Origin: Promicromonospora umidemergens
GTDB lineage: Bacteria; Actinomycetota; Actinomycetes; Actinomycetales; Cellulomonadaceae
Length of the DNA stretch: 64,000 nt
Direction of reading: 5' to 3'
Assembly: GCF_024171995.1 (NCBI RefSeq)
Contig: NZ_JAMTCT010000006.1
Location: 62,001-126,000, forward strand
Shown here: in pieces, positions 14,188 through 33,227 of the stretch
Layout: each line of letters starts with the position of its first letter
How positions within the stretch are numbered: the first letter of the stretch is position 1
Notes under the pieces: model-generated
What the model saw: only the letters and a program-made list of their open reading frames with translations
Database searches by the model: none
What the model was told of the DNA's origin: nothing
Translations under genes and position numbers: made by a program

Positions 14188-15911
14188 TCCGTGTCCTGAC
14201 CGCGCGCGACGACGCTCTCCTGGTCGAGCTCGACGACCTCGACCAGGCGGTCGCGCTCTACGAGTCCCTCACGACCGACCCGGTGCGCGGCGTCGGGGTG
14301 CCCGTGCCGGGCGCCCGGACGCTGCTCGTGCCGTTCCGGCCCTCGGCGATCACTGCGCACGCCCTGGCCGCCGAGCTCCGGACGCGACCCCTGGAGCGCC
14401 GCGCCACCTCCGCCGCCCGCACCGTCGAGATCCCCGTCCGGTACGACGGCGCCGACCTCGCCGAGGCTGCCGAGCTGATCGCCTGGAGCACCGACGAGCT
14501 GGTCCGGCGACACACCGCCGCGGCGTGGACCGTCGGCTTCGTCGGCTTCGCGCCCGGCTTCGCCTACCTCACCAGCGACGACCCCGAGCTGGTGGTCCCC
14601 CGCCGCGCCAGCCCGCGCACCAGGGTGCCTGCCGGATCGGTGGCGCTCGCCGGGCCGTACAGCGGCGTCTACCCGCGGGAGAGCCCTGGCGGCTGGCAGC
14701 TCGTCGGCCGCACCGACGCCCTCGTCTGGGACGTGACGCGCGAGCGCCCGGCCCTGCTGCTCCCTGGCGACGAGGTCCGTTTCGTAGCGGTGCGGGCGAC
14801 CGCGGAAGTCCGCCTCGACCATGCTGCTGGGCACGGATCCGCGGCCAGAACCGTGCCTGATCGCATGGTCGAGGCGGACCTTCCGGAGACGGCCGGCCCC
14901 CGACCGGGTGGGGTCGAGATCGTCAGCCCCGGAGTACTGGCCCTCGTGCAGGATCTCGGGCGGCCCGGCTCCGAGGGTTCCGGGGTGTCGGCGTCCGGGG
15001 CGCTGGACCGGCCGAGCCTGCGCGCGGCCAACCGGGCGGTCGGCAACCCGCCCGACGCCGCCGTCGTCGAGTCGGTGGGCGGGCTACGGCTGCGTGCCCA
15101 CGGGCCGCAGGTGCTCGCCGTGACGGGGGCTGCGGGCGAGATCGTGGTGCGGCCTGGCGCGGGTACCGGGCCGGGCGGCGCTGCGCCGGTCGCCGGTGCT
15201 CCCGACGAGCCGGCGCGCCACGACCGCCGCCTGCGGTCCGGGGAACCGTTCGCGCTGGACGACGGCGACGTGCTGCGCCTCGCGGCACCCGGCCGCGGGC
15301 TGCGCGCCTACGTCGCGGTGCGCGGCGGGATCGACGTGCCGCCCGTGCTCGGCAGCCGGGCCACCGACGTGCTCGCCGGGCTGGGGCCGGATCCGCTCGG
15401 ACCCGGTGACCTGCTGCCGGTCGGCGCACCGGAGCGCGGCGTGCCCGCTGCGGTGCCGCGTTCCGCCCCGGCGTCGGACGACCTGCCCGCGCCGGGCGAG
15501 ATCACCGTGCTGCCCATCGTGCTCGGACCGCGCGACGACTGGTTCGACACCGCGGCGATCGCGCGGCTGACCGGCCAGGACTGGCTCGTGACCCCGCGCT
15601 CCAACCGGATCGGGCTCCGGCTGGACGGTGACCCGCTCGCCCGGGTCCCTGAGCAGGACGGGGCCGAGCTGCCCAGCGAGGGCTGTGTGACCGGCGCTGT
15701 CCAGGTGCCGCCGGACGGGCTGCCCGTCCTCTTCCTCGCCGACCATCCCCTGACCGGCGGGTACCCCGTGGTCGGGGCGGTCGTCGCCGACCACGTCCCG
15801 CTCGCCGGACAGCTGCCTGCGGGGGCCCTCGTTCGCTTCGAGGTCCGCGGGCGCGCACCGGCAGCGCTCCCGTCCGACACTGTTCAGCACCACCCAGGAG
15901 GCACCCCATGA
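14184..15911 (+). CDS. pxpBC: Fused 5-oxoprolinase subunits PxpB-PxpC (KipI-KipA / AHS1-AHS2)
   Basis: The 575-residue protein joins an AHS1 domain (about 1-205; [11 protein letters not shown] and [17 protein letters not shown]) to an AHS2 domain (about 243-560; [30 protein letters not shown], and [10 protein letters not shown]). In most bacteria these are separate subunits. The junction (residues about 207-234) is encoded by a DNA palindrome. The GTG at 14184 overlaps the pxpA stop, and the fusion's TGA overlaps the next ATG. AHS1-AHS2 is also the carboxyltransferase module of urea carboxylase. Confidence 0.92.
14804..14884. repeat. In-frame palindrome at the PxpB-PxpC junction
   Basis: GTCCGCCTCGACCATGC (14808-14824) has an exact inverted copy at 14863-14879, extended by GGAA/TTCC with one bulge. 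A nested pair GGCACGG/CCGTGCC lies at 14830-14836 and 14851-14857. The 81 bp keep the reading frame and encode the interdomain linker. Confidence 0.8.
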
Positions 15912-17716
15912 TCCGCACCGTGCTCATCGCGAACCGAGGCGAGATAGCGGTCCGCGTGGCCCGTGCGTGCGCCGACCTGGGGATCCGCTCCGTCGCGGTG
16001 TACGCCGACGGCGACGCCGACGCCCTGCACGTCCGTCTCGCCTCCGATGCCTGGGCCCTGGACGGGCGCACCGCCGCCGAGACCTACCTGTCGGTGGACA
16101 AGCTGCTCGACGTCGCACGCCGGTCCGGTGCCGACGCCGTCCACCCCGGATACGGCTTCCTGTCCGAGAGCGCCGCCGCAGCGCGGGCCGTCGAGGAGGC
16201 AGGGCTGGTGTGGGTGGGGCCGACGTCGGCCACCATCGAGCTCCTCGGCGACAAGATCGCCGCCCGCGACCTGGCCCGGACGGTCGGTGCGCCCCTGGTG
16301 CCCGGCTCGGACGGCCCGGTGCCCGACGCCGCCGCCGCGCTCGCCTTCGCCGAGGAGCACGGCCTGCCGCTGGCCATCAAGGCGGCGCACGGGGGCGGCG
16401 GGCGCGGCATGCGCGTGGCGAGGACCCTCGACGAGGTGCCCGAGCTGTTCGACGCCGCCCGGCGTGAGGCGGAGGCCGCCTTCGGACGGGGCGAGTGCTA
16501 CCTCGAACGCTTCCTTGACCGGCCCCGGCACGTCGAGGCGCAGATCATCGCCGACGAGCACGGGCACGTGGTGGTCGCGGGCACCCGGGACTGCTCCCTG
16601 CAGCGCCGCAACCAGAAGCTCGTCGAGGAGGCGCCCGCACCGTTCCTCGACCCAGGTGTGCGCAAGCGGATCCACGAGTCCGCGCGCGACCTCTGCGCGG
16701 CCGCCGGGTACCGCGGCGCGGGGACCGTCGAGTTCCTGCTCGGGGCCGACGGCACGTGCTCGTTCCTCGAGGTGAACACGCGGCTCCAGGTGGAGCACCC
16801 CGTCACGGAGGAGACCACCGGTCTGGACCTCGTGGTCGAGCAGCTCCGCGTCGCGAGCGGCCTGCCGCTGTCCGTGACCGAGGACCCCGAGCCCCGCGGG
16901 CACGCGATCGAGCTGCGGCTCAACGCGGAGGACCCTGCGCGCGGGTTCCTGCCCGGCCCGGGCCGCATCGAGCGGTTCGTCGCGCCCAGCGGCCCCGGCG
17001 TCCGGGTCGACGCCGGGGTCGAGTCCGGGTCGGTGATCCCCGGCGAGTTCGACTCGCTGTTCGCCAAGGTCGTCGTGTGGGGGGCCACCCGGGAGGCGGC
17101 GCTCGCGCGGGCGCGGCGAGCCGCGGCCGAGACCGTGGTGGAGGGTGTGCCGACAGTACTGCCGTTCCACCGTGCGGTACTGGCGGACCCGGCGTTCACG
17201 GGTACGGCCGGGCCGGGGTTCGCCGTCCACACCCAGTGGATAGAGACGGAGCTGCTCGCCTCGATCGACCCGCAGGCCCTGGCGGAGCCCGTGGCCGAGC
17301 CCGGGGTCGTGGACACGTGGGTCGAGATCGACGGGAAGCGTCACCGGGTGCGCACGCCGGGTGAGATCGGGTTCGGGGGCGTAGGGCCGACGACGGGCTC
17401 CGGTGCGGCGGCGGGTGCTGGTGCGGCACAGGCTCAGGGCGCACCGCCGGCGTCGGGCAGCGGGGTGGACGACGCACGCGTGCCGCTGCTCCCCGCCATG
17501 CCCGGAACCCTGGTGCGCTGGCTGGTGCCCGACGGCGAGACCGTCGCCGACGGCCAGCCGCTCGCCGTCGTCGAGGCCATGAAGATGGAGACCCAGCTCG
17601 TCGCGGAGGCCGCAGGAACGCTGGAGCACTCCGTGGCAGAGGGAAGCCGGCTGACGACGGGCGAAGCGATCGGCTATGTGCGTGTTCCGCGAGATGAGCT
17701 CGGTCGGATGGGATGA
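15908..17716 (+). CDS. Biotin carboxylase / biotin carboxyl carrier protein (AccBC type)
   Basis: The 602-residue protein has biotin carboxylase (about 1-445; [14 protein letters not shown], the ATP-loop [27 protein letters not shown]) and a C-terminal carrier domain with VEAMKMET and biotinyl Lys559, joined by an Ala/Gly-rich linker. It resembles acyl-CoA carboxylase alpha chains, but no carboxyltransferase beta gene is nearby. AGGAGG precedes ATG 15908, which overlaps the PxpBC stop (ATGA). In this operon it may pair with the AHS1-AHS2 protein, as in urea carboxylase. Confidence 0.88.
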
Positions 17717-17764
17717 GATCGGTCAGTCAACCGACCGATCTCATCCCATCCGACCGAACTCATC
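17693..17764. terminator. Bidirectional hairpin between the pxp operon and nadB
   Basis: Arms 17700-17724 and 17733-17757 are perfect 25-bp inverted repeats with an 8-nt loop; after one mismatch six more pairs extend it to 17693-17764. The inner arm is GAGATCGGTC (17715-17724) facing GACCGATCTC. The left part overlaps the last codons of the carboxylase. The same decamer arms with an 8-nt loop occur inside tilS. Confidence 0.85.
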
Positions 17765-17772
17765 TGCCACCC

Positions 17773-19473
17773 TCAGCAGGCCTGCAGCACTCCGTCGTCG
17801 TCCAGCCAGACCCGGACGCGGCGCTTCCACGCTTCGTCCGGTCTCGGGAAGTCGGTGCGGTAGTGGCCGCCGCGGGTCTCCTCCCGCAGGGCGGCCGCCC
17901 GGGTCAGGATGCGGGCCACCTGGTGCACGTTGGTGGTCTCCCACTCGGCGGCCTGGGGCTCGGCCACCACCTCGGTCGTCCGGTGCGCGTCGGCGCGGAC
18001 GGCGGCGAGCCGCTCGTCGACGTCGGCCAGCGAGCGCGCCGAGCGGATCACGCCGGACCCGGCGGACGTCACCTTCTGGATCCGCGACCGGGCGGCGGCC
18101 GCGACCAGCGCGGACCCGCCGCTGCGCTCGGCAGGCGTGCCCGGCCTGAGCTCGCCGGCGGCGAACCGCGCAGCGACGTCCCGTGCCGCACGGGAGGCGA
18201 ACACCAAGCCCTCGAGCAGCGAGTTCGACGCGAGCCGGTTCGCCCCGTGCACGCCGGTGCAGGCGACCTCGCCGACCGCGTACAGCCCGTCCACCGAGGA
18301 CCGCCCGTCGAGGTCGGTCACGACGCCGCCCGAGTGGTAGTGCTGGGCGGGCGCCACGGGCACGGGCTCTTCCGACCAGTCGATCCCGGCCTCCAGCAGC
18401 CGCCGGTTGATCGTCGGGAACCGGGTCCGCAGGAACTCGCGGCCCAGGTGGCGGGCGTCGAGCAGCACGTTGTCGGCTCCTGTGGCAGCCATCTGCCGCA
18501 CTATCGCGTGCGCGACGACGTCCCGCGGCGCCAGCTCCGCCATCTCGTGCACGGCCGGCATGAACCGGTGCCCGTCGACGTCGAGGAGCAGCGCTCCCTC
18601 ACCGCGCACGGCCTCCGAGATGAGGGGCACCTGGCCCTTGGCGCCCGTGCCCAGCCACAGGACGGTCGGGTGGAACTGCACGAACTCCAGGTCCCCGAGC
18701 ACCGCGCCTGCCCGGAGCGCCGCGGCGATGCCGTCTCCCGTCGCACCGGACGGGTTGGTCGACGACCGGAACACCTGCCCGATCCCGCCGGTAGCCAGGA
18801 CGACCGCCGGGGCAAGGACGGCGCCGACACCGTCCCGCGAGCCGGTACCCCGCACGTGCAGGGTCACACCGCAGGCACGCGCTCCGCTCCCCTTCGACCC
18901 ACCCCGACCACCCAGGGGTGCCGTCGTCAGCACGTCCAGCACCAGGGCGTTCTCGACGACCTCGATGCCGGGGTCGTGCCGGACCGCCTCGATCTGCGCC
19001 ACGAGCGCCCTGGAGATCTCCGCACCCGTGGCGTCACCGCCGGCGTGCGCTATCCGGTCGGCGTGGTGGCCGCCCTCGCGGGTGAGCGCGATGTCGCCGT
19101 CGGCCGCCTTGTCGAAGACCGCCCCGCGCGCCACGAGCTCGCGCACCCGCTCAGGGCCCTCGGTGACCAGCACCTGCGCGGCCTCCGGGTTGGACAGGCC
19201 TCCGCCTGCGACGAGGGTGTCCGCGAGGTGCGCCTCGGGCGAGTCGGACGGGTCGAGCGCCGCGGCGATGCCGCCCTGTGCCCACACGGTCGAGCCCGAC
19301 AGGAGCCGCCCCTTGGTCACGAGCAGCACCCGCGGCACGTGCGTACGCAGCTCGAGCGCCGCCGTCAGACCGGCGATGCCGGAGCCGACGACTATCGCGT
19401 CGGCCTCAGCGGTCCAGCCGGGCGCCGGTGCGGCGAGGGAGCGTGCGAGACGAGGTCCGGGACCGGCGCTCAC
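17773..19473 (-). CDS. nadB: L-aspartate oxidase
   Basis: The 566-residue flavoenzyme oxidises L-aspartate to iminoaspartate for quinolinate synthesis. It has the FAD motif [35 protein letters not shown] (20 residues), LEFVQFHPT, and [17 protein letters not shown]. The GTG at 19473 overlaps the panD stop (GTGA). A Gly/Ser-rich loop ([11 protein letters not shown]) sits where family members have a shorter turn. nadA is not in the window, and nadC is separated by the pxp block. Confidence 0.95.
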
Positions 19474-31883: not shown

Positions 31884-33227
31884 TTACTCCTGAGTTGTGC
31901 TGGGGGGCGGGACGCCGGTCCCGCCGTCCGAGATACCGGTCGGCGCGGCGCGCAGGAAAAGACTGCCACACGCACGACGGGCTCGTGCGCCGCCCGGGAG
32001 ATGGACGGGGCCTTGACCGCTCCATGACACGACGAGGGCGTCCAGCGCGTCGACGTGTCGGGTGGTGGTGTCCGTCGGCCGGCAGCCGGCAGCGAGCGCG
32101 GCGAGCCGGAGGGCACGACGCCGGAGCGCCGGGTGTGCCTGCTCCAGCACGGCGACGTCGAGGGTGCGCACGACGTCGCTCTCCCCCGCCGTCGGCCGGC
32201 CAGGGGCTCCCGTGCCTTGTGCCGCCTGGGCCGCCGCCGGGGCCCTGCCGGCCCGCTCGAGGAGCTCCGCGGCGAGGGCGTCCAGCAGGTCCGCGTCGTC
32301 GCGCAGCTGGTCCGCGCTCCGCCCGAGGGCCTCGGCTACACCAGGGCCCAGCGTGTCCTCCAGCACCGGCAGCACGCGCCCGCGCACCTGCGAGCGCAGC
32401 GGCGTGAAGGTTCCGCGCGATCGGTCCGTTGCATCGCGCTGAACCTGAGATCGGTCCGTCGACCCGAGATCGGTCGATCGATGGACCGATCTCGAGTCGC
32501 CCGACCGATCTCGGAGCAAGGCGCCGGCCGGGGGGCCGGTCGGCAGCAGGTTGGTGGGGTCCGTCCAGAACTGCAGGCCCGACGCCGCACACACCGCCTC
32601 GGTCTGCGCCCGGCGCAGTCCGAGGAACGGCCGGCGGAAGATCCCCCGCTCGCGCGGCATCCCGGCCAGCGAGCGTGCCCCGGCACCCCGGGCGAGCCCG
32701 AGCAGCACCTGCTCCGCCTGGTCGTCGAGGGTGTGCCCGAGCAGCACCAGGGCGGCGCCGGCCTCGGCGGCGAACACCTCCAGCGCGGCGTACCGGGCAT
32801 CCCGGGCAACCGCCTCCGGCCCTCCGCCGCCGGACGTCGGCCCGGTCGAGTCATGGACGTCCCGAACCAGACCAGGCCTTCGTTCGGCTGCCGCATCGGG
32901 ACCGCCGGCGGCAGGCCGGTCCGCACGCCGGACCACCACCGGGTCGAGGCCCAGCGAGCGGCACTGCTCCGCCGCCCGCGCGGCCACCTCGGCGGAGCCG
33001 GCCTGCAGCCCGTGGTCGACGACCACCGCGCCCGCCCGCACGGCGTGGCCCCGCGACCGGACCGAGCGCCCCACCCGCCGGGCCTCGAACGCCAGCGACG
33101 CGGCGAGAGCGAGGCTGTCCGCACCGCCCGAGCAGGCGACCAGCACCAGGTCGTCCGGGCCGAGGCCGGCCAGCACCTCCCGGACCGCGTTCCGGGCCGC
33201 TGCGACGGCGGGGTCGACACGGGCCAC
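31884..33227 (-). CDS. tilS: tRNA(Ile)-lysidine synthase, with in-frame insertions
   Basis: TilS modifies C34 of tRNA-Ile(CAU) to lysidine, an essential step for reading AUA. The ATP pyrophosphatase loop is SGGADS (33-38), followed by [29 protein letters not shown] and the FWTDPTN motif. Between that motif and [17 protein letters not shown] about 35 extra residues (238-272), rich in Arg, Ser and Asp, are encoded by a palindromic repeat. A second insertion (about 104-138) is rich in Gly, Arg and Pro. The 447-residue length exceeds typical actinobacterial TilS. GTG 33227 is the first start in frame. Confidence 0.9.
32447..32512. repeat. In-frame nested palindrome inside tilS
   Basis: GAGATCGGTC occurs at 32447 and 32466, and GACCGATCTC at 32484 and 32503. 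The inner pair is separated by an 8-nt loop and the outer spacers are both 9 nt, so the 66 bp form a symmetric cruciform. A third, partial GATCGGTCC copy lies at 32419. The decamer arms and loop length equal those of the terminator at 17715-17742. Confidence 0.88.

Follow-up and report, generated by a model that had tools for sequence, protein, structure and literature searches.

The tilS gene of Promicromonospora umidemergens, which encodes a tRNA(Ile)-lysidine synthetase of 447 aa (31884–33227, minus strand, in the window, i.e. the whole 64,000-nucleotide stretch of DNA analysed here), contains a long palindrome within its coding sequence. The best-known examples of in-frame coding palindromes come from Rickettsia, and the initial annotation of this locus proposed a comparable element in an actinobacterium. 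This raises the questions of what this palindrome is, whether it belongs to a wider family and how it came to be lodged in a protein-coding gene.

Within tilS, positions 32447–32512 (minus strand) form a 66-bp quasi-palindromic core with a 10-9-10-8-10-9-10 layout, composed of a 10-mer arm, a 9-nt spacer, a second 10-mer arm and an 8-nt loop, followed by the mirror image. The arm GAGATCGGTC is found exactly at 32447–32456 and 32466–32475, and its complement exactly at 32484–32493 and 32503–32512, confirming that the four decamers first noticed at this locus were exact and correctly placed. The two 33-nt halves meet at the junction 32479/32480 with a complementarity of 88%, and model R1 scores the core at 81.3 and 80.0 bits on the two strands. 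The core is accompanied by a single 30-bp outer unit (32417–32446, minus strand; GCGATCGGTC CGTTGCA followed by 13 nt), also coding, whose arm bears one mismatch and which is of the type flanking many other cores at a spacing of ~30–31 bp. The range initially attributed to the element (32419–32518) contains the 66-bp core, but also takes in most of this outer unit. Scanning the window against Rfam returned no match, and 11 matches to microRNA families obtained by E-value for 7 core loci were all under the gathering scores; a known RNA family was thus rejected for the core, no Rfam match reaching its gathering score.

The frame 31884–33227 is open throughout and the core is flanked by the two TilS domains, PF01171 (residues 28–227) and PF09179 (residues 356–423), in a protein whose TIGR02432 match exceeds the cut-off, confirming an in-frame palindrome in an intact gene. 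The core alone represents ~22 residues (239–261) of a hypervariable linker of 53 residues (227–279; 32391–32549, minus strand) that runs from the DPTN motif to the end of PLRS, as delimited by comparison with congeners and by alignment with the solved TilS 3A2K. In this alignment, the linker counts 51 residues versus 6 in 3A2K, the second aligned stretch being at chance level and the placement resting on the motif. Searches of 12 other Promicromonospora genomes yielded 11 readable tilS linkers, the gene being incomplete in the twelfth, and the core was absent from all 11. Nine of these linkers, read directly, were 16, 23, 24, 25, 29, 29, 30, 30 and 51 aa long, and a 12-nt gap separated the two TBLASTN matches in both P. 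panici and P. sukumoe. The ~35 extra residues first estimated for this protein consequently depend on the yardstick, the linker of 53 aa being longer than the 16–30 aa of eight of the nine congeners, but close to the 51 aa of P. citrea, which lacks the core. In Promicromonospora sp. AC04, a single element arm of the outer-unit type (GCAACTGACCGATCTC) lies at the equivalent place of the linker, as either a remnant or a seed. Because the linker is so variable, there is no clean empty-site boundary for the insertion. The tilS copy thus sits in an inter-domain linker tolerant of length change, and the inserted residues would form an exposed surface loop, which fits a site between two domains in a length-variable linker; most likely, the copy is only a tolerated inter-domain loop. 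Elsewhere in TilS, alignment with several relatives also fails over residues ~103–131 (32835–32921), a second such stretch situated after the N-terminal part and before residue 132.

The P. umidemergens genome (6.6 Mb, 65 contigs) contained 37 matches to the two-arm pattern with up to 3 mismatches, versus 1 for the reversed pattern, in line with the genome-wide enrichment of the arms anticipated from the tilS locus. Seventeen copies of this genome served to build a covariance model, which recovered all of them at 65–90 bits, together with 11 weaker relatives at 37–58 bits among 150 candidates scored. Extending the search to 13 Promicromonospora genomes, the inner hairpin (up to 1 mismatch) was found 264 times versus 0 for the reversed control, in 12 of the 13 genomes and with 2 to 47 copies each, using a pattern that takes in a sister family, hereafter family B, and leaves out copies with two changes. 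Family B, observed in P. umidemergens at C2:381544, C3:322158 and C30:33478 (loci L027, L028 and L025), displays the same 66-nt layout with outer arms TCGGCA and loops mostly of the form CCAG...CTGG. The existence of a genome-wide, coding-tolerant palindromic repeat family in an actinobacterium is therefore supported, and the best explanation overall is that the tilS palindrome represents one member of a REP-like family of palindromic repeats in Promicromonospora, which we regard as probable.

A scan of named genomes gave at least 108 stretches, of which, among the matches listed, 107 were from Promicromonospora and 1 from Isoptericola. Covariance-model matches were obtained in 20 of 59 relatives (8 of 46 genera) and in at least 14 of 297 genomes of the order, P. 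umidemergens included, the latter being a lower bound given the strict filters and the few candidates scored. Outside the genus, the matches often kept the 66-nt layout with other arm words (e.g. GAGCTCGGCA or CGGGTCGGTC), which represents a lead only, since the fixed length of the model favours such matches. In a genome from another family of the order (G054), near-identical 68-bp palindromes (GAGACCGGTCGAAAATAGGAG...) were observed at three loci (L075, L212 and L280), with model matches at 12 places, and appear to be either a relative that spread recently or a family of independent origin.

A second core, which the initial annotation did not mention, occurs in the window at 17696–17761, between two convergent genes and with the same 19/18/19 spacing as the tilS core. 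The gene on its left (15908–17716, plus strand), presumably biotin-carboxylase-like from its sequence, has its final codons inside this core, whose GATGAG supplies its stop codon (TGA, 17714–17716). The convergent neighbour (17773–19473, minus strand) is a gene that we take to be L-aspartate-oxidase-like. The orthologous sites of P. thailandica (L101) and P. iranensis (L171) also hold cores, with other spacers. An uptake-sequence role was considered for the arms and dropped, exact arms being confined to these two cores in the 64-kb window.

The anatomy and placement of the family were examined on 115 distinct copies, after discarding those less than 700 nt from the end of a locus and those duplicating another in their 146-nt context; the underlying pattern demands a T at arm position 5 and leaves out shifted-arm copies. 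Inner arms were nearly invariant and spacers variable, with 68 kinds of spacer among the 115 copies. A spacer was perfectly complementary to its own partner in 57 of 115 copies, versus 1.8% between copies. Among the 17 P. umidemergens copies, 12 of 29 pairs were changed on both sides, and both-side changes amounted to 40 cells versus a mean of 16.6 after shuffling and at most 11 with the partner slid. The stem of the hairpin is thus maintained by compensatory paired changes, and its predicted stability averages -55 kcal/mol. Many cores are bordered, either on a single side or on both, by inverted outer units of ~30–31 bp carrying the motif CGGTCnnTTGC, and arrays of outer units also exist.

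These copies are depleted in genes, only 6 of 115 lying inside predicted genes versus 1570 of 2000 random 66-bp windows of the same loci (Fisher P ~2e-60, overstated since orthologous copies among the 115 are not independent), with gene calls made by a simple codon-score caller built for this analysis. The share inside genes was uneven between genomes, with 1 of 17 tilS-type copies in P. umidemergens and 5 of 25 in P. sukumoe. The 109 remaining copies were located between tandem (52), convergent (44) or divergent (13) genes; for the 96 tandem and convergent copies, the nearest stop codon was at a median distance of 50 nt, and in 5 of the 115 copies the stop codon of a neighbour fell within the core. 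The family is thus dispersed, mostly within ~100 bp 3' of stop codons. Furthermore, many core positions were common to several species, and spacer identity reached 0.70 in 97 orthologous copy pairs versus 0.59 in random pairs, so that copies persist in place.

Such a placement 3' of stop codons and between convergent genes, together with a very stable hairpin and paired changes in its stem, could also be expected if the cores terminated transcription in both directions or stabilised mRNA 3' ends, and were selected for their RNA hairpin, the tilS copy then being a stray. We nevertheless hold this explanation to be doubtful. In 108 of 115 copies, no T-run exceeding 2 was present in the 20 nt flanking either side, and sense-strand G-U combinations (24) were not clearly above A-C ones (18) in tandem copies, which, within the limits of these small counts, argues against selection at the RNA level. 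In addition, the sequence of the arms is conserved, and not their pairing alone, and a terminator inside tilS would cut the tilS mRNA. An intrinsic terminator was rejected, U-tracts being lacking and no clear G-U excess being found.

The dispersed, palindromic and, at orthologous sites, patchy nature of the cores also recalls classical REPs or MITEs mobilised by a dedicated transposase. According to the main text of PMC3733652, REPs are many-copy palindromes found mostly between tandem or convergent genes near their 3' ends, where they sometimes supply stop codons. The location of the Promicromonospora copies matches this description (PMC3733652), since they are likewise intergenic and 3' of genes (96 of 115 tandem or convergent), but their core is longer (66 nt versus 20–40 bp for REPs as given there) and has two repeated arms per side. 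By contrast with the GTAG/CGTC super-families of REPs, no tag was enriched near the core ends, CGTC occurring in 31 and GTAG in 5 of 115 copies versus 699 and 134 of 2000 random windows, and no RAYT was detected, the Y1_Tnp profile (PF01797) matching 0 of 13 Promicromonospora genomes while the same search was positive in 5 of 14 control genomes. As in MITEs, the cores are non-autonomous and dispersed with inverted symmetry; unlike them, no parent transposase was identified in the search for Y1 enzymes, and there is no unique centre beyond the 8-nt loop. Among the 30 largest clusters of neighbouring genes, sharing was nearly all orthologous, which also speaks against transposition of this kind; the main exception was short-chain dehydrogenases (5 members), found beside cores in more than one context, which we ascribe to how large this gene family is. 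Mobilisation by a dedicated transposase consequently seems rather unlikely, and a RAYT-mobilised REP was rejected for this genus in view of the missing PF01797 match. Inspection by eye of the sequences beside cores revealed neither a target-site duplication nor a clean empty site.

In the preferred reading of a REP-like repeat family, copies would be spawned by some copying process, selection would purge most of those landing in genes, and survival within a gene would occur only where the 22 added codons are free of stops in the frame used and fall within a variable linker. As 66 is a multiple of 3, the reading frame is kept. Movement of copies is deduced only from their presence and absence. 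Points that weigh against this reading are the lack of any mobilising enzyme in the Y1 search, the uneven in-gene share between genomes, the missing clean boundary of the tilS insertion and the coreless 51-aa linker of P. citrea. The tilS palindrome might otherwise have grown in place from a short linker arm by template switching, with no copy inserted, as the single arms in the tilS linker of AC04 and in the hemG of P. panici and the existence of outer-unit arrays could suggest. However, local growth would not be expected to produce a 66-nt match to the genome-wide consensus with both arms and fixed spacing, and single arms are equally explained as remains of lost copies, making this scenario improbable. 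Finally, an ordinary low-complexity TilS linker that is palindromic by chance, for which only the hypervariability of the linker could speak, has a negligible probability and is refuted by the identical 66-nt structure at 17 sites of the same genome, the 37 versus 1 pattern matches and the 264 versus 0 hairpins of the genus.

The tilS copy is not the only one read in frame: there are 14 such copies, distributed over seven genes, namely tilS, hemG, recD, Ada/AlkA, a sacsin-type ATPase, an MPAB oxygenase and a GDSL lipase; these 14 belong to a set of 172 in which hemG loci were fetched deliberately, and do not define a rate. The hemG-type protoporphyrinogen oxidase holds an in-frame core in six genomes, and a seventh, slightly degenerate one in P. 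thailandica. No hemG core was found in P. umidemergens, AC04, P. panici or genome G006, and the gene was incomplete in two genomes. The hemG linkers of P. umidemergens and P. panici retain arm remains, arguing for loss in addition to gain. For recD, the core is present in P. thailandica and absent from the 7 other genomes having this gene. In-frame cores are found in two species for the Ada/AlkA fusion, the insert of P. sukumoe lying at residues ~202–223, between HTH_18 (115–194) and AlkA_N (235–382), and in two species also for the sacsin-type ATPase. Beside the core of the AC04 sacsin-type ATPase (L145, ~1277–1342), the arm-encoded peptide GQPTDLASIA is repeated several times in tandem. Reading in frame thus concerns a minority of copies, which fall in linkers or loops of proteins that are otherwise intact, as for tilS.

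One and the same reading frame is used by five of the seven host genes, giving a recurring 22-residue peptide, and the tilS copy is read in another frame. This preferred frame carries a TGA in most copies and, depending on the strand, is open in 33 or 37 of the 115; the TGA is removed in six tabulated in-gene copies by a C at position 19. Under openness-weighted chance, at least five of seven genes sharing a frame has P ~0.001, for seven genes only and with a test framed after seeing the data.

Palindromes within genes are, as such, already known, since REP copies lie inside genes in several species, recBCD genes included (PMC3733652, main text); that text does not contain the words actinobacteria, actino-, Streptomyces or Mycobacterium. 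As for Rickettsia palindromic elements (RPEs), described in the available text of PMC10969869 as ~150 bp long with nearly half of them in ORFs, the Promicromonospora family comprises in-frame, coding-tolerant palindromes in unrelated genes, seven here, with a preferred frame and a recurring peptide. It differs from them in its shorter length (66 bp) and in its rarity in genes (6 of 115, and 5 of 25 tilS-type copies in P. sukumoe, versus the RPE figures of PMC10969869). The comparison with Rickettsia made in the initial annotation therefore holds for the in-frame, coding-tolerant character of the element, but not for its avoidance of genes (6 of 115 versus 1570 of 2000), its shorter size and the lack of CGTC tag enrichment; by the features tested, a Rickettsia-type element is not supported as stated.

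In P. sukumoe, a search with relaxed arms retrieved 35 cores, comprising 25 of the tilS type and 10 of family B, a split made by our own reading of the outer arms (the loop label would place L247, L251 and L253, which have tilS-type outer arms, otherwise). Of the 25 tilS-type copies, 15 show GAGACCGGTC in place of GAGATCGGTC in both inner arms, 6 in a single inner arm and 4 in neither, the spacers remaining specific to each copy. In family B of this species, 9 of 10 copies show GAGATCGGTC in both arms and the last has one changed arm. At 12 tilS-type positions common with other species (both flanking genes alike, or same host gene), 9 carry GAGACCGGTC in P. sukumoe and the compared copies GAGATCGGTC, with the exception of one GAGACCGGTC arm in the hemG of genome G005, a comparison biased by the retrieval of most of the other loci with a pattern demanding GAGATCGGTC. 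In P. umidemergens, searched with up to 3 mismatches, a single tilS-type copy has one changed arm. The changed arms of P. sukumoe include its in-frame hemG and sacsin-type ATPase copies.

The conserved arms, free spacers and concerted arm difference of P. sukumoe point to a putative trans-acting DNA- (or RNA-) binding factor that would recognise the arms. We tentatively propose, at less than even confidence, that the arms are sites read by this factor and that the set of sites follows the drift of its specificity in place, even within coding sequence. Spacer identities of P. sukumoe (0.63 in orthologous, 0.55 in random and 0.59 in within-genome comparisons) weakly favour such a change in place, the alternative being that the arm difference reflects the recopying of new variants.

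No description of the 66-nt Promicromonospora family was found in the literature searched (titles and abstract openings of part of the matches, most subscription papers lying outside). Its interest lies in its occurrence in a free-living soil actinobacterial genus, its fixed 66-nt geometry, its lack of a known mobiliser and its recurrent in-frame copies, to which is added the apparent genome-wide coordinated difference in arm sequence of one species, P. sukumoe. The dozen related genomes provide a tractable system for the spread of repeats without RAYT and for a possible protein reader.

A cargo gene was also considered and rejected, the sole gene framed by two cores in several genomes encoding a 320-aa protein known from one locus only in the fetched loci. 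This protein, which we presume to be AbiEi-like, had no Pfam or NCBIfam match at E 0.001. Five relatives (L191–L195) have its gene bracketed by a pair of cores, with an aminopeptidase P gene on one side and a YflT-type stress gene on the other. The gene is inverted in P. sukumoe (L193), and the corresponding site of P. umidemergens (L012, 7875–7940) has one core and lacks the gene, suggesting recombination between cores at this site.
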